This document shows, piece after piece, positions 2-17,113 of a DNA stretch of 64,000 bases. Source of the stretch: Hyphomicrobium sp. LHD-15 (GTDB taxonomy: Bacteria; Pseudomonadota; Alphaproteobacteria; Rhizobiales; Hyphomicrobiaceae); assembly GCF_031157355.1 (NCBI RefSeq), contig NZ_JAVIFT010000001.1, positions 248,001 to 312,000 on the forward strand. The letters are read 5' to 3'. Each line of letters opens with the position of its first letter. The stretch's first letter is position 1. A program made the position numbers and the translations under genes. The notes beneath the pieces are model-generated. The model was not told where the DNA came from. It saw only the letters and a list, made by a program, of their open reading frames with translations, and ran no database searches.

Positions 2-2911
2 TACAGAACCCACGACCATGTCCGTCTCGGCGAGCATGGCGAGTTGTACTTCGTCGGCCGGCTGGACGATCTCGTCAAAATCCGCGGCTTCCGCGTGGAG
101 CTCTCCGAGATCGAAGCCGTGCTGATGATGCATCCTTCGATCAAGGCTGCAGCAGCGCGCGTGGTCGATACCGACACGCTCAAGGAACTCGCGGCCTACG
201 TGGTCTGCGACGGCGGAGGCGCCGCGCTCGATCGCGATAGCCTCAACGCTCTTTTAAGGGAGCGGCTGCCGCCCTACATGGTGCCGCAATACCTCGACGT
301 GCTCGACGTTCTGCCGATGATGGCGAGCGGAAAGATCGATCGCAAAAGCCTGCCGCTTCCGCAAAAGCCGCTGGTCTCGGCCCATACCATCGTGGCGCCC
401 GCCGACGACATCGAGCGCAACATCGCGGACGCTTGGCAGGAGACCTTCCGCCTGTCCGAGATTTCCGTGGTATCCGACTTCTTCGTCGACCTCGGCGGCC
501 ATTCCATGCTCGCGGCCCAGGCGCTGACGCTGATGCGCCGGAGCACGGGCCTCACCCATCTTTCGGTACGCGACGTCTACGCGCATCGCACGATCCGCGC
601 GCTTGCCTCCCACATCCGCGAGACGGAGCAGCCCCGTTCCGACCGCGACGACGTCACGGAGGTCGAACCGCAGGATTGCGAGACCGCGTCCGATCAGGCG
701 GCGCCGGGTGAAGCTGCCTTCAACAGCGTGCATCCCCTGGTGCGGTGGACGACGGCGACGCTTCAGGCGCTGGTCGCAACCGCACTCTACGGCCTGCTTG
801 CAGCGCCGCTCACATATACCGTGCTCATCATGACGAGCGTGATCGACGGGCACGTCGACTGGTTCGTCGCGGCCGCGATCACGACCGTGGTCGGATTTAC
901 GGTCTGGCCGTTTTTCCTGCTGTTGAGCATCGCCGTGAAGTGGATCGTGGTGGGCCGTTACAAGCCCGGTCGCTACCCGGTCTGGAGCTTTTACTATCTG
1001 CGCTGGTGGATCGCGAACCGGTTCCAGGTTATCGCCTGGGCCGAGATGTTTAAAGGCACGCCGCTGATGAGCCTCTATTGGCGGGCCATGGGCGCCAATA
1101 TCGGCCGCAACGTTACGCTATCGACGCACCTGTGCACCGCATTCGACATGGTGACGATCGGCGACGACACGAGCGTCGGCATCGAGACGCAGATCCTCGG
1201 CTATCGCGTCGAGGGTGGTTATCTCGTGATCGCTCCGGTCACGATCGGCAAGGAATGCTTCATCGGCATGCAGTGCTCGATCGGGCTCGGCGCGCGCATG
1301 GGCGACGGAGCACGCCTCGACGACATGTCTCTCCTGGCCGACGGCATCGAGATGGCGGCCGGCGAAGCGCGTCGCGGCATTCCGGCGCTGCCCGCCGAAG
1401 TTCCGGTTCCGACGAGCAGCCGAGAAACGCCTCCTTCCACGTGGCTGCGGCGAGCTGGCCTTGCCATGACGCGCGCGTTCTACGGCACGCTGCATCTCGG
1501 CCTCATCTACGTCATGGGCTACTTCCTGATCCTGACGACCCTTCCGGCCGTCGCGCTCGTGCTAGGCAGCCTGTACCTTGGCGGTCCATGGTGGGGCATC
1601 GCGGCTGCATTCGCAGGCATCCCCGTCTGGCTCTTCTCCTACGTACAGGGCGCTATTCTCCTGAAGCGGCTGATCGGACCGCTCGGAGCCGGCACCAAGT
1701 CGATCTATAGCGTCACTTACCTGCGCCATTGGTTCTCCGCCTATCTGCTCGAGAACACCAAGACGATCCTGATGCCGGTGTATGCCACGGTCTATTTCCC
1801 GCGGCTTCTGCGGGCGTTCGGCGCAAAGATCGGCAATGGCGTGGAGATCTCGACCGTCTCGCACATTTGCCCCGACGTGCTCGAAGTGGGCGACGGAAGC
1901 TTTCTTGCCGATGCCTGCGTCGTGGGCGGCGAGCGCATCCATAACGGCACGCTCGAAATCGCTCCGGTCCGGATCGGCTCGCGCACCTTCATCGGCAACA
2001 GCGCCGTCGTGACCGGCGGCCACACCATTGGCGACGATGTTCTGATCGGCGTCTCCTCGACGCCGCCGGCGGACACGCCAATCGTTCCGAACGGCACGCG
2101 CTGGCTCGGCGCGCCGGGCTTCACGCTGCCCAACACGCAGAAGGTCAACACGTTCGCGGACGCCCAGATCTTCGCGCCGAGCTTGCTCATGCGCATCGAG
2201 CGGGCGCTGACGGATGCCGCGCGCATTCTGCTGCCCGGCGTGGTGACTGTCGCCTGCGGCGTTGCCTTCGTCGCGTTTCTGGTGGCGTCGTTCCGGACGA
2301 TCCCAACCTGGTACGTCATCGGCGCGATGCCGATCGTCGCCACCCTGCTCGCGTTCGTTTCGGTTGTATTGACGGCGCTTATCAAGAAGCTCGTCACCGG
2401 CGCGCACACGCCGGTCGTCAAGCCGCTGTGGTCGCGTTTCGTCTGGCACAACGAGCTCGTGAATGGCGTGTACGAGATGGTGGCGGCGGGCGCGATGCAG
2501 CCGCTGATGGGCAGCCCGTTGATTGCCCCGTGCCTGCGCATGATGGGCTGCAAGGTCGGCAAGTGGTGCTTCATCGAGACCACGCTCTTTTCGGAGTTCG
2601 ATCTCGTCGAGATCGGAGACAGGGCGTCGCTCAACGTCGGCTGCACTGTACAGACCCATCTGTTCGAGGATCGCATCTTCAAGTCCGACCGCCTCTCCAT
2701 CGGAAACGACTGCTCGGTCGGAAACATGGCCACCGTTCTCTACGGCACGCAGATGCTCGACGGCTCGGTGCTCGGAGCGTTGTCCGTGCTCATGAAGGGC
2801 GAGCAGCTTCCGGCGCTCACGCGCTGGCATGGCATCCCCTGCGAACGGGTCGTCGAGCCGAATACGGCAGTCGATGCAAACCGCAGCCGTTTGCTTCGCG
2901 CCGCTGCCTAA
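2..2911 (+). CDS. Pls/PosA-type NRPS-like protein, 5' end missing
   Basis: The frame is open from the window edge, so the N-terminal part of the adenylation domain is missing. The first visible residues read YRTHDHVR, matching adenylation core motif A7 (usually YRTGDLVR; the ATP-ribose Asp is kept). GELYFVGRLDD and VKIRGFRVELSEIE follow (A8), then A10 (GKIDRKSLP) with its catalytic Lys. A carrier domain follows with DLGGHS; the phosphopantetheine Ser codon is at 503-505. The remaining ~700 residues alternate hydrophobic membrane segments with three hexapeptide (left-handed beta-helix) blocks, the architecture of the Pls/PosA C-terminus first seen in epsilon-poly-lysine synthetase. In that family the adenylation domain loads one amino acid and the membrane part makes iterative amide bonds. 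The product here is unknown; a homopolymer or amino-acyl conjugate is an inference. Confidence 0.85.
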   Translation, partial: YRTHDHVRLGEHGELYFVGRLDDLVKIRGFRVELSEIEAVLMMHPSIKAAAARVVDTDTLKELAAYVVCDGGGAALDRDSLNALLRERLPPYMVPQYLDVLDVLPMMASGKIDRKSLPLPQKPLVSAHTIVAPADDIERNIADAWQETFRLSEISVVSDFFVDLGGHSMLAAQALTLMRRSTGLTHLSVRDVYAHRTIRALASHIRETEQPRSDRDDVTEVEPQDCETASDQAAPGEAAFNSVHPLVRWTTATLQALVATALYGLLAAPLTYTVLIMTSVIDGHVDWFVAAAITTVVGFTVWPFFLLLSIAVKWIVVGRYKPGRYPVWSFYYLRWWIANRFQVIAWAEMFKGTPLMSLYWRAMGANIGRNVTLSTHLCTAFDMVTIGDDTSVGIETQILGYRVEGGYLVIAPVTIGKECFIGMQCSIGLGARMGDGARLDDMSLLADGIEMAAGEARRGIPALPAEVPVPTSSRETPPSTWLRRAGLAMTRAFYGTLHLGLIYVMGYFLILTTLPAVALVLGSLYLGGPWWGIAAAFAGIPVWLFSYVQGAILLKRLIGPLGAGTKSIYSVTYLRHWFSAYLLENTKTILMPVYATVYFPRLLRAFGAKIGNGVEISTVSHICPDVLEVGDGSFLADACVVGGERIHNGTLEIAPVRIGSRTFIGNSAVVTGGHTIGDDVLIGVSSTPPADTPIVPNGTRWLGAPGFTLPNTQKVNTFADAQIFAPSLLMRIERALTDAARILLPGVVTVACGVAFVAFLVASFRTIPTWYVIGAMPIVATLLAFVSVVLTALIKKLVTGAHTPVVKPLWSRFVWHNELVNGVYEMVAAGAMQPLMGSPLIAPCLRMMGCKVGKWCFIETTLFSEFDLVEIGDRASLNVGCTVQTHLFEDRIFKSDRLSIGNDCSVGNMATVLYGTQMLDGSVLGALSVLMKGEQLPALTRWHGIPCERVVEPNTAVDANRSRLLRAAA

Positions 2912-2992
2912 GATCTGCTCACAGAGATGGAAATGGCGGCACCCAAGCGTGATGCCGTTTCCAAAAAACCCAATAAAACAGGCTTATCCCGC

Positions 2993-3009
2993 TTGGCATG
3001 CCCTGTGCA
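2993..3009 (+). promoter_or_regulatory. sigma-54 (-24/-12) promoter of the guanidine operon
   Basis: The 17 bases TTGGCATGCCCTGTGCA match the RpoN consensus TTGGCACG-N4-TTGCA. The invariant GG (2995-2996) and GC (3007-3008) are exactly 12 bases apart, the required phasing. Transcription would start near 3020, just upstream of the riboswitch aptamer at about 3028. No sigma-70 pair with acceptable spacing is evident. Sigma-54 control fits nitrogen (NtrC) regulation of a nitrogen-scavenging operon, but I did not identify an NtrC site upstream. Confidence 0.7.
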
Positions 3010-3027
3010 ATTAAGCTTTGCATAATG

Positions 3028-3137
3028 CCTCTAGGGTTCCGGTTGCCGCGCAATTCGGCGACGCTGGTCCGAGAGAGGCGCTCTCGTTCGCGCCCAAGCC
3101 CGAGCGAAGCCACGGCGGGATAAAAGCCCGGGAGACC
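3028..3137 (+). promoter_or_regulatory. Guanidine-I riboswitch (ykkC class) aptamer
   Basis: The leader carries the conserved blocks of the ykkC/guanidine-I aptamer in the right order: CTAGGGTTCCG (3031-3041), GGTCCGAGAG (3066-3075), and the 3' block GGCGGGATAAAAGCCCGGGA with GACC after it (3114-3137). Variable stems lie between them. The class binds free guanidinium and turns gene expression on. It sits immediately downstream of the predicted start site and upstream of a transporter, DUF1989, carboxylase and allophanate hydrolase operon, which is a typical guanidine-I context. This element is the main reason to read the operon as guanidine rather than urea assimilation. Confidence 0.95.
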
Positions 3138-3143
3138 TATACC

Positions 3144-3250
3144 GCAGGGAGTTTCGGCTCTCGAACGGAAGGCCTCCTCGTGTGCGTCTTGCGCCATCCG
3201 TTCGTCCCGATGCCCCTGCCATCGACTGTTTGGTGTCGTCAGCACAGGGG
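3144..3250 (+). promoter_or_regulatory. Riboswitch expression platform with Shine-Dalgarno-sequestering hairpin
   Basis: CCCCTG (3213-3218) is perfectly complementary to CAGGGG (3245-3250), the Shine-Dalgarno of the first gene. An inner CGAC/GTCG stem supports the hairpin. GCAGGG (3144-3149), directly after the aptamer, is complementary to CCCTGC (3214-3219), so it could compete for the same strand and free the ribosome-binding site. A further 8-bp stem (CGAACGGA 3162-3169 with TCCGTTCG 3197-3204) lies between. No U-tract follows any stem, which favours translational control over intrinsic termination. Pairings are read directly; the switching model is inference. Confidence 0.55.
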
Positions 3251-3256
3251 TTCTTC

Positions 3257-4321
3257 ATGAACAGGTCTATCTCCAAGCTTCTCCAAAGCGCTGTTGCCGT
3301 GGCGGCGAGCCTGGCGCTCGTCATGCCGTCGGCTGAGGCCGCCCCGAAGAAAGACTTCAAGGTTGCGTGGTCGATCTACGTCGGCTGGATGCCGTGGGGC
3401 TATGCCGCCGACACCGGCATCGTCAAGAAGTGGGCCGACAAATACGGCATCACCATCGAGGTGAAACAGTTCAACGACTACGTGGAATCCATCAACCAGT
3501 ACACGGCCGGCGCCTTCGACGCGGTCACGCTCACCAACATGGACGCACTCTCGATCCCCGCTGCCGGCGGCGTCGACACGACAGCCGTCATCGTCGGCGA
3601 CTACTCGAACGGCAACGACGCGATCATTCTAAAGGGCAAGGACAAGCTCGCCGACATCAAGGGGCAGACCGTCAATCTCGTCGAGTTCTCGGTCTCCCAC
3701 TATCTGCTCGCGCGTGCGCTCGAAAGCGTGAAGCTCGCCGAGAAGGACGTGAAGGTTCTCAACACGTCCGATGCCGACATGGCATCCGCCTACAAGACGG
3801 CCGACGTTACGGCCGTGGTGACCTGGAAGCCGATCGTCTCGACGATCCTCGAATCTCCGGACGCAAAGGCCGTTTACGACAGCTCGCAGATCCCCGGCGA
3901 GATCATCGACCTCCTGGTTGCCAACACAGAAGTCGTCAAAGACAATCCGGATTTCGGCAAGGCCCTCGCCGGCATCTGGTACGAGACGATGACCGAGCTT
4001 GCCTCCAAGAAGGAAGCCAAGGAGCACATGGCCAAGGCCTCCGGCACGGATGTCGCCGGCTTCGACGAGCAGCTCAAGACCACCAAGCTTTTCTCCACGC
4101 CGGCCGACGCCCTCGCCTTCACCTCCGGGGCCGACATCAAGGGCAAGAACGAACTCGTCGCAAAGTTCCTGTTCGACAAAGCTCTTCTCGGCAAGGACGC
4201 GAAATCCGCAGAGGCGATTGGCATCGAGTTCCCGGACAAGAGCGTGTTCGGCGACAAGGCCAACGTGAAGCTGCGCTATGACGCAACGTTCATGCAGGCC
4301 GCCGCCGACGGAAAGCTCTGA
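3257..4321 (+). CDS. ABC transporter substrate-binding protein of the guanidine/urea carboxylase locus
   Basis: This 354-residue periplasmic protein has an N-terminal signal peptide (a basic start, then a hydrophobic AVAVAASLALVMPSAEAA stretch) and an NMT1/SsuA-type fold: the mature part begins KVAWSIYVGWMPWGYAADTG. It resembles the binding proteins found with urea-carboxylase-type clusters, often annotated as putative urea ABC transporter. The riboswitch upstream makes guanidine the more likely ligand. The ATG at 3257 is preferred over earlier in-frame starts because it follows AGGGG by six bases and begins the signal peptide. It is first in a seven-gene operon; permease and ATPase follow directly. 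Direct ligand binding is unproven from sequence. Confidence 0.88.
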   Translation: MNRSISKLLQSAVAVAASLALVMPSAEAAPKKDFKVAWSIYVGWMPWGYAADTGIVKKWADKYGITIEVKQFNDYVESINQYTAGAFDAVTLTNMDALSIPAAGGVDTTAVIVGDYSNGNDAIILKGKDKLADIKGQTVNLVEFSVSHYLLARALESVKLAEKDVKVLNTSDADMASAYKTADVTAVVTWKPIVSTILESPDAKAVYDSSQIPGEIIDLLVANTEVVKDNPDFGKALAGIWYETMTELASKKEAKEHMAKASGTDVAGFDEQLKTTKLFSTPADALAFTSGADIKGKNELVAKFLFDKALLGKDAKSAEAIGIEFPDKSVFGDKANVKLRYDATFMQAAADGKL

Positions 4322-4368
4322 GCCACCTTTCCTCTCCCTGTCACAATAGTGGAGGCCGCGGGACTTCG

Positions 4369-5187
4369 ATGCGTCTGTTGAACATCAAACCAGATCGAGC
4401 GTGGACCGTCGCGCTCGCGGCCTTGCCTTTCTTCGCCCTGATCGTCGCCTACATGGTCGGTTCGGGGATTCGTCTCGCCGAGAACCCCAACGACAAGCTG
4501 TTGCCCAGCTTCACCGCCATGGCGGAGGCCGTGAAGCATTATGCTCTAGAGGCCGATCCTCGGAGCGGCCTCTACCTGATGTGGAACGACACGCTTTCGA
4601 GCCTGTCGCTGCTGCTCACGGCGCTTGCGATCTCGACGTTCATCGCGCTCGTTGTCGGCATCCTGATCGGGCTCCTGCCGATTGCAGGCGCCACGTTCGG
4701 GCCGGTGGTGGCCGTCGCTTCCATGGTGCCGCCACTCGCACTGCTGCCGATCCTGTTCATCATCATGGGGCTTGGAGATGGCGCCAAGATTTCGCTGATC
4801 GTCATCGGCACGACGCTGAAGCTCGTTCGTGACATGGCGCTTCGCGTCAAAGACATACCGGCTGAGCTGCTGATCAAGGCGCAAACGCTCGGTGCTTCCA
4901 CGTGGCAGATCGCGCTCAGGGTGGTGCTGCCGCAAATGCTGCCGCGGCTGATCGACAGCGTGCGGCTCGAAATCGGACCGGCCTGGCTGTTCCTGATCGC
5001 GGCCGAAGCGATCGCGGCAGACTCGGGACTCGGCTATCGCATTTTCCTCGTTCGCCGCTATCTCGCGATGGACGTCATCATTCCCTACGTCATCTGGATC
5101 ACGGTGCTGGCGTTCCTGATGGATCTCGCGTTGCGGCTTCTACAGCGCAAGGCCTTCCCCTGGTTTGCAGGAGCGCGCACCGCATGA
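4369..5187 (+). CDS. ABC transporter permease, guanidine/urea uptake
   Basis: This 272-residue inner-membrane protein has about six hydrophobic segments and a BPD_transp_1 permease core. The cytoplasmic EAA-type loop is visible as LLIKAQTLGASTWQIALRVV followed by LPQMLPRLID. It belongs to the SsuC/TauC-like permeases that work with NMT1-type binding proteins. Its stop overlaps the ATPase start by four bases (ATGA), so the two are translationally coupled. It would form the membrane channel for the ligand captured by the protein encoded at 3257. Confidence 0.9.
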   Translation: MRLLNIKPDRAWTVALAALPFFALIVAYMVGSGIRLAENPNDKLLPSFTAMAEAVKHYALEADPRSGLYLMWNDTLSSLSLLLTALAISTFIALVVGILIGLLPIAGATFGPVVAVASMVPPLALLPILFIIMGLGDGAKISLIVIGTTLKLVRDMALRVKDIPAELLIKAQTLGASTWQIALRVVLPQMLPRLIDSVRLEIGPAWLFLIAAEAIAADSGLGYRIFLVRRYLAMDVIIPYVIWITVLAFLMDLALRLLQRKAFPWFAGARTA

Positions 5188-6035
5188 CAGCCATCGTCTT
5201 CGACAAGGTGTGGAAAGAGTATGGCGATCACGTCGTGCTCGAGCGCATCAATCTCGAGATCGCGCCACGCTCGTTCGTGGCGCTCGTGGGGCCGTCGGGC
5301 TGCGGGAAAACTACGTTCCTGCGCATGCTGCTCGGAGAGGAAGCCGCTACGCGCGGAACAATCCTGGTTGACGGCAAACCGCTCAAAGTGGAGCCCGATG
5401 CCGACCGGGGCGTCGTGTTCCAACGCTACTCCGTGTTCCCGCATCTGACCGTGCTCCAAAACGTGATGATCGGGCGCGAGTTCGAGACATCCCGCTTCCT
5501 CGGCAAGCTGTTCGGCGCCAAGCGCAAGCAAGCCGAGGACGAAGCACGGACCCTGCTCGACGCGGTGGGGCTCAACGACCATGAGAACAAATATCCGGCC
5601 GCGCTTTCGGGCGGCATGCAGCAGCGTCTCGCGCTCGCCCAGGCGCTCAATCGAAAACCCAAGATCCTGCTGCTCGACGAACCGTTTGGTGCGCTCGATC
5701 CCGGCATCCGCGCCGACATCCACGTGCTGATCCGCAAGATCTGGAACGAGAACGATCTCACGGTGGTGATGGTCACGCACGATCTTTCGGAAGCCTTCCG
5801 GCTCGGAACACGCGTCATCGCCTTCGAGCGGCCCCGCAACCGGCCCGAAGAACTCGAACGCTACGGCGCGACGCTCGGCAGCGAGGCCCCGGGAGAGATC
5901 GCGCGTCCGTCCGGTCCGCAGCCGGGTGCTTCAATCACGCGCGATTTCGAGGTGTGGCCGAAGAAGATCGCCGCCCCCGTCGGCGGCGCGGCATCGGTTC
6001 CGGACACGCCCAGCGTGGCCAAAGCGGCGGAGTAA
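5184..6035 (+). CDS. ABC transporter ATP-binding protein, guanidine/urea uptake
   Basis: This 283-residue ATPase has Walker A GPSGCGKTT, a Q-loop (VVFQRYSVFPHLT), signature LSGGMQQRLALAQAL, Walker B ILLLDEPFGALD and the H-loop VTHD. An extension of about 60 residues after the ABC fold, rich in Pro and Ala, is not part of the core. The ATG at 5184 is chosen because it overlaps the permease stop by four bases and starts the canonical N-terminal beta strand; a much earlier in-frame start would lie inside the permease gene. It energises the transporter encoded by the two preceding genes. Confidence 0.9.
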   Translation: MTAIVFDKVWKEYGDHVVLERINLEIAPRSFVALVGPSGCGKTTFLRMLLGEEAATRGTILVDGKPLKVEPDADRGVVFQRYSVFPHLTVLQNVMIGREFETSRFLGKLFGAKRKQAEDEARTLLDAVGLNDHENKYPAALSGGMQQRLALAQALNRKPKILLLDEPFGALDPGIRADIHVLIRKIWNENDLTVVMVTHDLSEAFRLGTRVIAFERPRNRPEELERYGATLGSEAPGEIARPSGPQPGASITRDFEVWPKKIAAPVGGAASVPDTPSVAKAAE

Positions 6036-6141
6036 GGCCAATCGATTTCCGCCGGGGACGACCCCGCGCGGCTTCCTTCTCATCCCGGGACGGCCCGGAC
6101 CAACTTCGTGGGCGGTAACGCCCGCAGAGAGGAGCAGCGGC

Positions 6142-6867
6142 GTGAGTGACTTGATCTACAGCGATGTGCTTCCGGGCGGCAAGCACTGGTCGATGACGAT
6201 GCGGCGTAATCATCGCCTGCGCCTGACGGACGTCGACGGCGGGGCCAATGTCGGCATGCTGTTTTACAATCCGATAAACCTGCTCGAGCGCTACAACGCC
6301 CCCGATACGCTCAAATGCCAGCACACCTTCAAGCTCACGCAGGGCCATTGCCTCTACTCGGACATGGGCCGCATCTTCTGCTCGATCGTGGCCGATACGC
6401 ACGGCTGGCACGACACCGTATGCGGCAACAGCACGAAAGAGATCGTCGCGTCCCGCTGGGGCAACGTCTCCTATCAGACCCACCGCAACGATTGGCAGCA
6501 GAGCGGGCGCGACAGCTTTCTCGTCGAGGCCGCCAAGTACGGCTTAGGGCGACGGGATCTCGCGGCCAACGTCAACTGGTTCAGCAAGGTGACGACGGAC
6601 GAAAGCGGCAAGATCGCGTTTGACGCGAGCGCGGCCAAGACCGGCGCGACCGTGGAATTGCGCTTCGAGATGGATACGCTCGTGCTGTTCCACACCTGTC
6701 CGCATCCGCTCGATGCCAGCCCCACCTATCCGCGCAAGGCCGTACGCTTCGACATCCGAGAAGGCGCGCCCGCCTCAACCGACGATGCCTGCCGGCTGTC
6801 CGCACCCGAGAACGGACGCGGCTTCGAAAACAACCGGCTGTTTCATGCCGGCTGCGGTTGCGGCTGA
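6142..6867 (+). CDS. DUF1989 protein, probable carboxyguanidine deiminase subunit (first)
   Basis: This 241-residue protein is of the DUF1989 family, historically named urea carboxylase-associated protein. Paired DUF1989 proteins have been shown to form the carboxyguanidine deiminase CgdAB, which converts carboxyguanidine to allophanate with ammonia release. Typical features are the N-terminal [20 protein letters not shown] strand, the [10 protein letters not shown] segment, and conserved Cys/His residues ([17 protein letters not shown]). The C-terminus ends in GCGCG. The start is a GTG at 6142 preceded by GAGGAG. I cannot tell from sequence alone which of the two is CgdA and which CgdB. Confidence 0.82.
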
Positions 6868-6878
6868 GGGAGGGCAAC

Positions 6879-7526
6879 ATGATCAAGGAAAGCAAGCTCT
6901 CCGCTGACGCCGCTGTCTATCGCGAGACGGTTCCAGCCGGCGGTTATTGGATGCATGTGGTGCGCCGCGGCGAGACGCTGCGCATTCTCGACCTCGAAGG
7001 AAACCAAGCAGCCGACACGCTGTTCTTCAACGCCGACGATCCGCACGAGCGCTATTCGGCCTCGGATACGATCCGCGAGCATGGCAACGTCTATCTCGGC
7101 CCCGGCTCGGTGCTGCGGTCGGATCTCTGCCGTCCGCTAATGACGATTACGGCCGATACCGTGGGGCGGCACGACACGCTTGGCGGCGCGTGCGCGACGG
7201 AAAGCAACACGGTGCGCTACGCGCTCGAAAAGAAGAGCATGCATGCGTGCCGGGACAGCTATCTGCTGGCGGTGGTCGAGAACGAGCAGTACGGCCTCAC
7301 CAAGCGCGACATCGCCCACAACATCAATTTCTTCATGAACGTGCCGGTGACGCCGGACGGCGGGCTCACGTTCGCCGACGGCGTGTCGGGGCCGGGCAAG
7401 TACGTCGAGATGCGGGCCGAGATGAACGTCATCGTCCTTATCTCCAACTGCCCGCAGCTCAACAACCCCTGCAATGCCTACAACCCCACGCCCATCGAGG
7501 TGCTGATCTGGCCGGAGGGCGCATAA
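6879..7526 (+). CDS. DUF1989 protein, probable carboxyguanidine deiminase subunit (second)
   Basis: This 215-residue DUF1989 protein is paralogous to the one encoded at 6142. It shares the order of motifs: [48 protein letters not shown] and a late [19 protein letters not shown]. The start ATG at 6879 follows GGGAGGG. Eleven bases separate it from the preceding gene and three from the carboxylase, so the genes are clearly co-transcribed. With its partner it is expected to form a heteromeric carboxyguanidine deiminase acting between the carboxylase and allophanate hydrolase. Confidence 0.82.
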
Positions 7527-7529
7527 GCC

Positions 7530-10500
7530 ATGTTCAAGAAAGTTCTGATCGCCAATCGCGGCGCCATCGCCTGCCGCATCATCCGCACGCTCGACCGCCT
7601 GGGCGTTGCGAGCGTTGCCGTCTACTCGGAAGCCGACCGGCATTCGATGCATGTGGCGCAAGCCCGCGAAGCCGTCGCCATCGGCCCCTCGGCCGCAGCG
7701 CAAAGCTACCTCAAGGTTGACGCGATCCTGGCGGCGGCCAAGGCCACCGGCGCTGAAGCCATCCATCCCGGCTACGGCTTCCTCTCCGAGAACCCCGACT
7801 TTGCGGATGCGTGCGCGGCGGCGGGTATCGCTTTTATCGGACCGAAGCCCGATCAGATGCGCGCATTCGGCTTGAAGCATCGGGCGCGCGAGCTGGCGCT
7901 CGCCGCCGGTGTTCCGCTGGCACCGGGGTCGGGGCTGATCGACAACCTCGATGCCGCGAAGGCCGAAGCCCAGCGCATCGGCTATCCGGTGATGCTGAAG
8001 AGCACGGCGGGCGGCGGCGGCATCGGGTTGCAGCTCGTCTCGTCGGAAACGGAGCTCGAACCGCTCTACGAGCGCGTCGAACGGCTCGCGCGCAACAACT
8101 TCAAGGACCCGGGTCTCTTCCTCGAAAAGTACGTCTCTCGGGGTCGGCACATCGAGGTGCAGATCTTCGGCGACGGAAAGGGCCGCGTGGTGGCGCTCGG
8201 CGAGCGCGATTGCTCGGCGCAGCGGCGCAACCAGAAAGTCATCGAGGAGACGCCGGCGCCTGGGCTTTCGGACAAGGCGCGCGCGGCACTCTGGAAGACC
8301 GCCTGCGATCTCGGCAAGTCCGTCTCGTATGAAAGCGCGGGGACCGTCGAATTCCTCTACGATAGCGATACCGACGCCTTCTACTTCCTGGAGGTCAACA
8401 CGCGGCTGCAGGTCGAGCACGGCGTCACCGAGGAGGTGACCGGGTTCGATCTCGTCGAATGGATGGTGCGCCAAGCGGCCGGCGAAACGCTGCCGCTCGA
8501 GCAGGAGCGAATCCAGCCCAAGGGCGCCTCGATACAGGTGCGCCTTTACGCCGAAGATCCGGGCCGCGATTTCCGCCCCAGCTCCGGGCAGCTCTCGCAC
8601 GTGGCGTGGCCTGCGGACGCACGCGTCGAAACCTGGGTCGAAAGCGGCGCGGACGTCTCACCGTTTTACGATCCGATGCTGGCGAAGATCATCGTCAAAG
8701 CCGAGACGCGGCCACAGGCGCTGGCCAAGCTTCAGGATGCTCTGGCCGCGACCGAGATCGGCGGCCTCGAAACCAATCTCGACTATCTGCGCCAGCTCGC
8801 GGCCTCGGACATTCTCGCCGAAGGCCAGATGCTGACGCGCACGCTCGCGACATTTCCCTACAAGGCCGCCACCGTCGAAGTGCTGGCGTCCGGCACGCAG
8901 ACGACCATCCAGGACTGGCCAGGCCGCACTGGCTATTGGGCGGTGGGTGTGCCGCCGTCCGGTCCGATGGATCATCTGTCGTTCCGTCTCGCCAACCGCC
9001 TCCTCGGCAACGCCGAAGGCGCCCCCGCATTGGAGCTGACGCTGTCGGGCCCGACGCTGCAATTCAACCGCGATAGCGTCATCTGCCTTGCTGGCGCCGA
9101 GATGAGCGCGCGCGTCGGCGATCGTGCCGTTCCGTTCTGGCAGCCGTTCCAGGTTGCGGCCGGGGAGGTGCTGAAGATCGGAAGCGTGACGGGTGCGGGT
9201 GCTCGCGCCTATCTCGCCATTCAGGGCGGCTTCGACGTGCCGCTCTATCTCGGCAGCCACGCCACGTTCACGCTCGGCAAGTTCGGCGGCCATGGCGGGC
9301 GGGCACTGCTGACCGGCGACGTGTTGCATATCTCGCGCGCCGCTCCTTCTGAAAGCGCAGCTCCCGCGTCGCTTCCGGATGCGCTCAGGCCTGTTCTGTC
9401 GCGCGCCTGGGAGATCGGCGTGCTCTACGGTCCGCACGGCTCGCCGGACTTCTTCACCGACGATGATATCGCCACCTTCTTCGCCGCCAACTGGGAGGTC
9501 CACTACAATTCTAATCGCACGGGCGTTCGCCTGATCGGTCCCAAGCCGACCTGGGCCCGTACCGACGGCGGCGAAGCGGGCCTGCATCCGAGCAACATTC
9601 ACGACAATGCCTACGCCATCGGCGCGGTGGATTTCACAGGCGACATGCCGGTGATCCTGGGACCGGACGGGCCTTCGCTCGGCGGGTTCGTGTGTCCGGT
9701 CACGATCGTGCAGGCGGAACTATGGAAGCTCGGGCAGCTTCGTCCGGGCGACAAGGTGCAATTCAAGCGCCTCTCGCCGGTCAACGCACGCGCGCTCGAG
9801 ATCAAGCAGGACAGCGAAATCGCGTCGCTTGCGCCGATGGGCTCGCCTCCGTTGGTGGACGTCAATAGCGTCGGCGCGGACGATTGCATCGTCGGCGATC
9901 ATCCCGAGGACGGCGTGCTGCCGCGTGTGGTCTACCGCCGCCAAGGCGACAAGTATCTTCTCGTCGAATACGGGCCCATCGTGCTCGATTTCGAGCTCAG
10001 GTTCCGCGCGCACGTGCTGATGACGAAGCTCGAAACGCTGGCCATTCCCGGCATCATCGATCTCACGCCCGGCATCCGCTCGCTGCAGATCCACTACGAC
10101 AGCCGCGTTCTGCCGCTGCAGGCCCTGGTCGACAAGCTCGCCGAGATCGAAGACGCGATGGGTGACATCGGCGACATCGAGGTGCCGAGCCGCATCGTTC
10201 ACATGCCGCTGTCCTGGGACGACGCCGCGACGCAGCTCGCGATCTCGAAATACATGCAGTCGGTGCGCGCCGATGCGCCGTGGTGCCCCTCGAACATCGA
10301 GTTCATCCGGCGCATCAATGGCCTCGATAGCATCGAGGACGTGAAGGAAATCGCCTACGGCGCGAGCTATCTTGTGCTCGGGCTCGGGGATGTCTATCTC
10401 GGCGCGCCGGTGGCGACACCGCTCGATCCCCGGCATCGGCTGGTCACCACGAAGTACAACCCCGCACGCACCTGGACGCCCGAGAACGCCGTCGGCATCG

Positions 10501-11156
10501 GCGGGGCCTACATGTGCGTCTACGGCATGGAAGGTCCCGGCGGCTATCAGTTCATCGGGCGCACGGCGCAGGTGTGGAATACCCATCGTATCACGCCCGA
10601 GTTCGATGCCGACAAGCCGTGGCTGTTGCGCTTCTTCGATCAGATCCGCTTCTACCCGATGGATGCGGAAGAGCTGCTCGCATTTCGCGACGGCTTCCTG
10701 CAAGGAAAAGTCGGGCTCAAAATCGAACCCACGACGTTCAAGCTGTCGGATTACCGCCAATTCCTCACCGACAATGCGGCCGATATCGCGGCGTTCAAGA
10801 AAAAGCAACAGGCGGCCTTCGAAGACGAGCGCTCGCGCTGGCAGGCGAGCGACCAGTCGGGTGCGGCAACAAGCGAAGCAAGCGCCGATGACGGCGCCGA
10901 GGACGCGTTGGCGGACAACGCCGTCCCCGTCGCGAGTCCGGTTCCCGGCGCAGTGTGGAAGGTGGAAGTCAGCAAGGGTGCTCGCGTCAAGGAGGGCGAT
11001 CTCTTGGTCGTGGTCGAATCCATGAAGATGGAAATGTCGGTGCATGCCCCTTCGAGCGGGGTCGTCACCGAGGTGCGATGCGCCGAGGGGCGGCCTGTCG
11101 CGTTGGGGCAAACCCTGATCGTTCTGACCGAAGACGTACCGGAGACCGCAGCATGA
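7530..11156 (+). CDS. Biotin-dependent guanidine (urea-type) carboxylase
   Basis: This 1208-residue enzyme has the full single-chain layout of the urea carboxylase family. Biotin carboxylase occupies about residues 1-450 (N-terminal [22 protein letters not shown]-grasp Gly loop [28 protein letters not shown]). Next come the two carboxyltransferase halves, KipA-like then KipI-like, about 455-1050 ([35 protein letters not shown]). The C-terminal biotinyl domain carries [12 protein letters not shown], with the biotin Lys at about residue 1166. It carboxylates the substrate with ATP and bicarbonate. The family contains both true urea carboxylases and guanidine carboxylases. The riboswitch and DUF1989 pair argue for guanidine, but I did not assess substrate-discriminating residues. 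Confidence 0.92.
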
Positions 11157-12952
11157 GCGCGCCGATCTCATCGCTCTCTTTCGACGTCGAAACGCTGACG
11201 GAAGCCTATGCCTCGGGAACGTTGACGCCTTCCGATGTTATCGCGGAAGTCTACCGGCGCATCGGCGAGCGCGGCGAAAAGCCGGTGTGGATCTCACTCA
11301 TGCCGCTGGAGCAGGCGTTAGCGAAGGCGGCTTCCGCGCCAAAAGGCCCGCTTCACGGCATCCCGTTCGCGGTCAAGGACAACATCGACGTCGCGGGTTT
11401 GCCAACGACATGTGCGTGTCCCGACTATGCCTATGCTCCGGAGCGTTCGGCGACGGCTGTCGAAAAACTCGAAGCCGCAGGCGCCATCGTCATCGGCAAG
11501 ACCAATCTCGATCAATTCGCGACCGGTCTCGTCGGTACACGCTCGCCCTATGGCATTCCATCGAGCGTGTTCGACGCGGACTATATCTCGGGCGGGTCGA
11601 GCTCGGGCTCGGCCGTGGCGGTCGCGGGCGGCCTGGTCTCGTTCGCGCTCGGCACCGACACTGCGGGGTCGGGTCGTGTGCCGGCCGGCTTCAACAACAT
11701 CGTGGGCCTGAAGCCGACCAAAGGCTTCATTTCCGCGCGCGGCCTGGTTCCGGCCTGCCGGACGCAGGATACGATCTCGATTTTCGCGCTCACCGTTGGC
11801 GATGCCGCGAAGGTGATGTCCCTCGCCGCGAGCTTCGACGCGGGGGATGCCTATTCGCGCCGGTCACCGCGGCCGTTTTCCGTCGAAGCGGCGGCACCGG
11901 GACTGCGCATCGGCGTACCGAAAGCGGGGCTCGAATTTTTCGGCGACGTCGACGCAGAACGGCTTTATCGCGCAAGCGTCGAGAGGATGGCAGAAGCCGG
12001 TGCGTCGATCGTCGAGATCGATTTCACACCGTTTCAAAAGGCGGCCAGCCTGCTCTATGCGGGACCGTGGGTCGCCGAGCGTTTGGCTGCGATCCGCGCC
12101 TTCGCCGAGACGCATCCGGATTCGCTCAATGATGTCGTCGGCGGGATCATTCGCGGCAGCGCGAAGCTATCGGCCGTCGATACCTTCGATGGCTTCTATC
12201 GCCTCGCCGAGCTCGTGCGCGAAGCGGACGCCCAATGGAAAGCGATGGACGTGCTGCTGCTGCCGACCAGCGGCACGACTTACAAGATCAGCGAAGTTCT
12301 CGCCGATCCGGTTCGGCTCAATTCCAACCTCGGCCTCTACACGAACTTCGTCAATCTCATGGATCTCTCGGCGCTCGCGGTGCCGGCGGGATTCCGTCCG
12401 AACGGTTTGCCGTTTGGCGTGACGCTGATTGGGCAGGCGTTCGAAGACGGCAAGCTCGCAACGCTCGGCGACCGCCTGCATCGGTCGCTCGATGGCCTCA
12501 AGCTCGGCGCAACGGCCAAGCCGCTCGCCGAAACGGCGCCGGTTGTTTCCTCGCCCGCCGGGGGACGCGTTGCGGTCGCCGTCGTCGGCGCGCACCTCTC
12601 GGGTCAGCCCCTTAACAGCCAGCTTCGGGAGCGCAACGCGCGGCTGATCAAGACCACGCGCACTGGACCGGGGTACCGGTTCTATGCACTCGCCGGAACG
12701 GTGCCCGCGAAGCCCGGCCTGGTGTTCGACGGCACGAGCGCGGGCAACATCGAGGTCGAGATCTGGGAGCTGGACGAAGCCGGTTTCGGCTCGTTCGTGG
12801 CGCTCATTCCGCAGCCGCTCGGCATCGGCACGCTGACGCTGGCCGACGGCAGCCTCGTCAAAGGCTTCCTCTGCGAGGCGTATGCAGTCGCGGGCGCGAC
12901 CGACATTACTGATTTCGGCGGATGGCGGGCGTGGCTGGGCCGGCCCAAGTAG
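11153..12952 (+). CDS. atzF: Allophanate hydrolase
   Basis: This 599-residue amidase-signature enzyme hydrolyses allophanate to ammonia and carbon dioxide, the last step of the pathway. The catalytic Lys is Lys75 (FAVKDNID). The Gly/Ser-rich signature GGSSSGSA spans residues 147-154 and the likely nucleophile is Ser173 ([11 protein letters not shown]). The C-terminal third (from about residue 460, [19 protein letters not shown]) is the second domain found in full-length AtzF/DUR1-type hydrolases. The start overlaps the carboxylase stop by four bases. It is the last gene of the guanidine operon. Confidence 0.93.

Positions 12953-14997: not shown

Positions 14998-17113
<2,116 letters not shown>

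Follow-up and report, generated by a model that had tools for sequence, protein, structure and literature searches.

What decides when a bacterium expresses genes for the assimilation of guanidine? The question is raised by a stretch of 64,000 nucleotides from the soil-type bacterium Hyphomicrobium sp. LHD-15 (the window), in which genes for an ABC importer, the CgdAB pair, a urea carboxylase family protein and an allophanate hydrolase follow a putative sigma-54 promoter and a Guanidine-I riboswitch. The usual explanation of guanidine riboswitches invokes only guanidine itself. Our analysis makes it quite likely that this guanidine-assimilation operon is under series control, requiring a need for nitrogen AND the presence of guanidine, with guanidine read twice. 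The original prediction for this DNA had suggested such an AND-gate of RpoN and guanidine, and our sequence tests mostly agree with it and put the observation itself on firmer ground than was stated. We also consider it probable, with slightly less confidence, that Guanidine-I assimilation operons of Pseudomonadota generally stand under sigma-54/NtrC and Guanidine-II export operons are without sigma-54, food and poison being split by promoter choice. A riboswitch class would then be systematically tied to an enhancer-driven promoter in a two-key lock, and the transcript would start at the aptamer in alphaproteobacteria or tens of bases before it in other classes.

In the proposed mechanism, NtrC-phosphate, made when nitrogen is short, would bind a dyad near position 2913 and activate the sigma-54 polymerase at 2993-3009, as suggested by sequence and conservation. 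Transcription from about 3020 would give a transcript that opens with the Guanidine-I aptamer, which would have to bind guanidine for full importer expression. The aptamer would most likely free the importer's ribosome site or counter Rho; these routes are favoured because an intrinsic terminator is not evident. Farther inside the transcript, a Guanidine-II riboswitch would gate translation from cgdA onward, as expected from its class and from a predicted pairing. The stand-alone Guanidine-II exporters tested in the same order are without the sigma-54 key.

The sigma-54 box and the Guanidine-I aptamer

The putative sigma-54 -24/-12 box TTGGCATGCCCTGTGCA (2993-3009, + strand) fits the consensus closely and lies at a conserved place. 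Its GG and GC are exactly ten apart (GG-N10-GC) in a TGGCAC-N5-TTGC context, and TGGCACG-N4-TTGCW is matched at 10 of 12 positions. The original prediction called this RpoN promoter perfectly phased, which holds for the spacing and is too strong for the bases. It also put the end of the box about 20 bases before the aptamer, which is roughly right: the Guanidine-I model begins 11 nucleotides (nt) after the box end and the first paired base follows after about 17 nt. The aptamer itself (3020-3136, + strand), likewise predicted, was recovered by Rfam RF00442 with 76.9 bits (cut-off 63, E 6.2e-12) and is the sole match of that model reported across the 4.29 Mb genome. The predicted start, 12 nt from the -12 C (3008), is position 3020 and thus aptamer base 1, so the place of the box fits a start. 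In an alignment of eight family members, the -24 and -12 bases are kept amid an otherwise variable 5' region.

A comparison of alphaproteobacterial leaders for the same phasing had been proposed with the original prediction, and its outcome is favourable. A Guanidine-I search of the order covered 397 genomes, of which 101 gave a match and 77 a match over the cut-off, for a total of 92 over-cut-off places. All 92 were examined, together with 5 of the 30 below it. A box was counted when it scored at least 9 of 12 and its -12 C lay 16-29 nt before the conserved CTAGGG. Of the 92 over-cut-off loci, 79 have such a box, its distance from the aptamer hardly varying; the loci are not independent events, because the genomes are related and several have two or three loci. 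The control, 14-nt windows taken elsewhere in the same loci, gave 229 of 54768 (0.4%). At a score of at least 10, the counts are 74 of 92 loci and 26 of 54768 windows (0.05%). Below the cut-off, one of the five examined places has a box; weak places with EamA or DctP genes may, we assume, be other ykkC subtypes. The most frequent position among the 80 box-bearing loci is -24 (37 loci). In all 80 the predicted start falls between -5 and +6 of aptamer position 1, no later than the first paired base, and in none is it inside the aptamer's first stem.

The coupling extends beyond the order. A search of 398 genomes of the phylum gave 45 over-cut-off Guanidine-I places outside the order, and at 37 of these a box scoring at least 10 lies no more than 300 nt upstream, in most cases 46-96 nt ahead of CTAGGG. 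In the controls, windows of 291 nt, such a box was present in 10 of 672 cases (1.5%) at the outside-order loci and in 24 of 2359 at the order's loci. On these counts it is very unlikely that box and aptamer are coupled by chance.

As a promoter contrast we used 40 stand-alone Guanidine-II places of the same order. No box scoring at least 10 was found within 300 nt of any of the 40, and a site scoring exactly 9 is present in 5, at scattered positions. By tblastn, the downstream genes encode 28 SMR exporters, 8 PACE-type exporters, 1 cgd/carboxylase operon and 3 unclassed products; one member of each exporter type was named by Pfam. Guanidine-I loci with a box mostly lead into importer genes together with either CgdAB/carboxylase or an arginase-family enzyme, and a few lead into other transporters. 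PF00491 was found in five of the six carboxylase-less importer operons tested (L048, L051, L058, L107 and L114); in the importer operon L045 the tested downstream frame had no match. Exporters do not make up most of the Guanidine-I loci lacking the box; among these loci are second cgd/carboxylase copies, some importer operons and two genes of the arginase family.

Many of the longer leaders at the beta/gamma-type loci (L261-L299) share a stretch ACAAT ... AATGG/AATAG just 5' of the aptamer, for which an extra RNA element or a second promoter are options.

A candidate NtrC site and its activator

The predicted NtrC site is a dyad, TGCCTAAGATCTGCTCA (2905-2921, strand not applicable), which agrees with TGCCTA-N5-TAGGCA at 9 of 12 positions. 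The dyad is centred 81 nt upstream of the box's TGGC and shares letters with the stop codon of the preceding gene. The best dyad is at -80/-81 in six family members (L034-L039, of which L034 scores 8) and at -61 in L033 of the same genus. An imperfect inverted repeat is also present near 2925-2962, between the dyad and the box.

The Escherichia coli-type site GCAC-N7-GTGC, with at most one mismatch, occurs inside the order in 12 of 81 loci, which is background (control 10.1%), and was rejected there. Because it is not enriched in the order, an unbiased dyad search was made. This search led to TGCCTA-N5-TAGGCA, a form of TGC-N11-GCA, the motif given for rhizobial NtrC in the accessible passages of PMC10746234. 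TGC-N11-GCA is present in 27 of the 81 order loci, against 6.8 in shuffles (largest 13). The dyad scores at least 9 of 12 in 47 of the 81 loci, compared with 6.9% of 1345 control windows, and at least 10 of 12 in 24, compared with 0.9%. Since the motif was derived from these 81 loci themselves, a second locus set was tested. This set, used for the dyad test, contains the box by construction; 15 of 120 matches were removed as duplicates, plus those with less than 220 nt upstream, and 'alpha' in it stands for all contigs whose titles do not name Acinetobacter or Solimonas. Contigs of Hyphomicrobium facile DSM 1565 and of a Bradyrhizobium diazoefficiens strain are among those that show the arrangement. 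Among the matches listed, the dyad reaches at least 9 of 12 in 45 of 81 (control 7.5%) and at least 10 of 12 in 19 of 81 (1.2%). An enhancer-like dyad upstream of the box, enriched in relatives, suggests that the operon belongs to an NtrC regulon.

In the loci beyond the order, 26 of 38 have GCAC-N7-GTGC upstream when one mismatch is allowed (control 19.2%), most often between -50 and -100 relative to the box, and 10 of 38 have the exact form (control 1.4%; 281 control windows).

The nitrogen-related genes of Hyphomicrobium sp. LHD-15 offer a comparison. At its glnK-amtB locus (L323), a perfect dyad TGCCTAATTGCTAGGCA is followed 85 nt on by the sigma-54-like TGGCACGTCTTTTGAC and then by a PII-type gene, recognised by eye; the corresponding spacing at the guanidine operon is 81 nt. 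TGGCACGTCTTTTGAC has the -24 element, with GA in place of GC at -12. The glnK gene of Sinorhizobium meliloti is listed among RpoN promoters earlier characterised or predicted, according to passages of PMC3616915. At amt loci, a dyad of at least 10 of 12 occurs within 1500 nt upstream in 9 of 26, compared with 2 of 30 inside genes, and another amt gene of Hyphomicrobium sp. LHD-15 (L347) has a box scoring at least 10 and two 9/12 dyads. The genome encodes RpoN. It also yields five matches of at least 258 bits to the NtrC model, one of them over the cut-off; that NtrC has the GAFTGA loop, as does a second of the five (L135). The NtrC of Caulobacter differs in being without this loop, according to passages of PMC12421884.

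Riboswitches and genes within the operon

The operon appears to have a second, internal guanidine checkpoint, which the original prediction had left unremarked. A Guanidine-II riboswitch with two ACGR-loop hairpins (6050-6098, + strand; Rfam RF01068, 40.6 bits, cut-off 32) separates the importer ATPase gene from cgdA and is the sole RF01068 match reported across the 4.29 Mb genome. The main set of 96 loci contains 24 in which Guanidine-I is followed, 2.8-4.9 kb downstream, by Guanidine-II on the same strand. These 24 are among the 27 loci with both ATPase and carboxylase matches, and their Guanidine-II lies between the ATPase gene and the next operon gene. Riboswitches of the Guanidine-II class gate the translation of downstream genes. 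In the minimum-energy fold of the window's element, the linker CTTCCTTCTC (6072-6081, + strand) would pair with the cgdA Shine-Dalgarno sequence AGAGAGGAG (6126-6134). A 2022 review of tandem riboswitches states, in the passages available, that tandems are seen for no guanidine class (PMC9481103); the window's two guanidine riboswitches, however, are kilobases apart.

A possible expression platform of Guanidine-I lies at 3213-3250 (+ strand), where CCCCTG (3213-3218) could mask AGGGG (3246-3250). AGGGG is Shine-Dalgarno-like, precedes the importer start codon and is invariant in all seven aligned family members, and a CCCCT-like run upstream could mask it in some of the seven. A platform that masks the importer's Shine-Dalgarno sequence is a guess.

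The operon proteins were assigned with NCBIfam models, which agree with the predicted transporter, DUF1989 pair, carboxylase and allophanate hydrolase, including the end of the last gene at 12952. All genes lie on the + strand. The importer consists of a substrate-binding protein (3257-4321; TIGR03427, 543.8 bits), a permease (4369-5187), which matches nitrate/taurine/sulfonate-type permease families with none over the cut-off, and an ATPase (5181-6035), which matches ABC ATPase families with none of those shown over the cut-off. These are followed by cgdA (UAAP1, DUF1989 type; 6142-6867, GTG start; TIGR03425 over the cut-off), cgdB (UAAP2, DUF1989 type; 6879-7526; TIGR03424 over the cut-off), the urea carboxylase family gene (7530-11156; TIGR02712, 1883 bits) and the allophanate hydrolase gene (11153-12952; TIGR02713 over the cut-off). 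At the level of families, carboxylase, CgdAB pair and allophanate hydrolase together make up a guanidine carboxylase pathway operon. The product of 7530-11156 is probably a guanidine carboxylase; guanidine would be its substrate because of the riboswitches and CgdAB. We take COG3665 to be the DUF1989 family.

The upstream neighbour (44-2911, + strand) encodes AMP-binding C-terminal, carrier and hexapeptide-transferase domains, and no link of it to guanidine was seen. A glutamate dehydrogenase family gene (15626-17113, + strand; PF00208, PF02812) is located 2.7 kb past the operon and possibly serves ammonium assimilation.

Competing explanations, related systems and export loci

A number of observations weigh against series control by nitrogen and guanidine, beginning with the promoter. 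Within the window alone the sigma-54 motif is unexceptional (17 matches with at most two mismatches, about 25 expected), the box itself has two mismatches, and the strict form TGGCAY-N5-TTGCW has 8 matches in the Hyphomicrobium sp. LHD-15 genome compared with 6 for a reversed control. In the order, 13 of the 92 over-cut-off loci lack a box (L015, L052, L055, L059, L063, L071, L075, L078, L081, L086, L092, L101 and L102; in L059 and L092 the GC differs at one base), as do 8 of the 45 outside it. One could read the box, on such grounds, as a chance look-alike, with an unrecognised sigma-70-type promoter in its place and guanidine alone in control. The weight of the box, however, comes from its place and conservation and not from rarity within the window. 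Its fixed position in relatives, the constancy of its -24 and -12 bases in a variable region and its absence from all the stand-alone Guanidine-II loci speak against a look-alike, and a simple consensus scan of 2850-3300 found no sigma-70-type site; we regard this explanation as very improbable. A real box could also be driven by a different enhancer-binding protein, for instance NtrX or an orphan, and the second signal would then not be general nitrogen limitation. The several NtrC-model matches, one over the cut-off and L135 with its own GAFTGA loop, leave room for such a protein. The window's dyad is imperfect, at 9 of 12, and neither dyad is clear at the Acinetobacter box loci, where the dyad of at least 9 of 12 gives a weak signal (5 of 19, control 5.2%) and GCAC-N7-GTGC occurs in 3 of 19 (control 4.7%). 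A box scoring at least 10 is present in 3 of 30 amt loci and missing from 27, which leaves few cases to connect the dyad with NtrC at sigma-54 promoters. On the other side, the dyad fits the rhizobial motif (PMC10746234, in the passages available) and an unbiased search arrived at the same form, a perfect copy stands at glnK-amtB of the same genome, and the beta/gamma-type loci carry GCAC-N7-GTGC instead. Another activator is therefore an unlikely alternative to NtrC, but a less remote one than a look-alike box.

Doubts at the level of the riboswitches concern their mode of action. The pairing of linker and Shine-Dalgarno sequence, averaged over 24 loci, differs weakly from that of shuffled linkers (-9.0 against -7.6 kcal/mol), and the Guanidine-I platform is uncertain, its CCCCTG/AGGGG pair being absent from the minimum-energy fold of the window leader. 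Guanidine-I might act by intrinsic termination and not through translation or Rho, since the class is usually a transcriptional ON switch according to passages of PMC12186494, and the window has one weak terminator-like stem (3208-3224). With a finder reaching up to 260 nt past the aptamer, only one of 83 order leaders showed an intrinsic terminator (shuffles 0.5%), which makes the usual terminator mechanism less likely here, and the invariant AGGGG could be masked; of the alternatives considered, termination is the one we would keep most readily in mind, while still doubting it. We thus favour a lock with two keys, nitrogen shortage at the promoter and guanidine at both riboswitches.

All parts of this conserved combination are known, and double control by guanidine riboswitches has already been published for other bacteria. 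According to passages of PMC12508155, the operon of Vreelandella boliviensis resembles that of the window in its ABC importer, cgdA/B, carboxylase and allophanate hydrolase, with Guanidine-I first and Guanidine-II internal. It differs in its extra mgdH/mgdL genes and in the site of Guanidine-II, which lies between cgdB and the carboxylase gene there and between the importer ATPase gene and cgdA in the window. In the same passages, most of the guanidine operon proteins are undetected on ammonium, and the two riboswitches are credited with the upregulation (PMC12508155); the word promoter appears once in the paper. Raoultella terrigena, Erwinia rhapontici and Klebsiella michiganensis, as described in parts of a guanidine review (PMC12186494), resemble the window in having Guanidine-I on importer and deaminase genes and Guanidine-II on later enzyme genes; the enterobacterial Guanidine-II precedes carboxylase and hydrolase, whereas the window's precedes cgdA. 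The words rpon, ntrc and sigma are absent from the accessible parts of that review. Among the matches listed from the open-licence PubMed Central literature, no report of a conserved coupling of sigma-54/NtrC to guanidine riboswitches was found.

Two studies come close from the side of nitrogen control. In an ntrC mutant of Burkholderia cenocepacia H111, a urea-carboxylase operon of the same kind (I35_7283-7286) is down, with I35_7286 (urea carboxylase) at log2 -6.0; the operon is treated as one for urea use, and no link to guanidine or a riboswitch was seen in the available text (PMC5491218). A prediction of sigma-54 regulons contains 102 COG3665 genes in alpha-, beta- and gammaproteobacteria, 59% of them called 'urea carboxylase' (PMC12316311). 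Its accessible text is without the words guanidine and allophanate, and riboswitch appears once, in a reference.

If nitrogen is a compulsory second key, comparisons of guanidine with ammonium would shift two controls together, and reporter assays run on nitrogen-rich media would leave a large part of the range unseen. For annotation, the type of promoter would help to tell riboswitches that serve guanidine use from those that serve detoxification. A two-key rule also makes it testable when bacteria truly use guanidine.

Several minor observations were made along the way. Two of the eight strict sigma-54 matches, at 245391 (- strand) and 246627 (+ strand) of contig 1 (G000), lie just before the window and at most 1.3 kb apart. 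One of the eight (L316) has a 10/12 dyad, and a clear target gene was not found for it.

PACE-type proteins are, after SMR, the second exporter family seen behind Guanidine-II. Proteins of this type, of about 145 amino acids, are encoded behind the stand-alone riboswitches at L366, L368, L373, L374, L377, L378, L381 and L387. One of them, the L373 protein, has a match to PF05232, the chlorhexidine (PACE-type) efflux family, and all these proteins of about 145 amino acids are alike in sequence. Among the unclassed loci, a gene of the same PACE type follows at a greater distance in L361, whereas L359 has an ATP synthase gene, the a-subunit by Pfam. The first residues at L369, also unclassed, resemble those at L359, and the Guanidine-II matches at L359 and L369 are possibly false positives. 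A divergent guanidine pair is suggested at L054 (G203), where the Guanidine-I of a carboxylase operon is preceded, at about 300 nt, by a Guanidine-II match in the opposite orientation.

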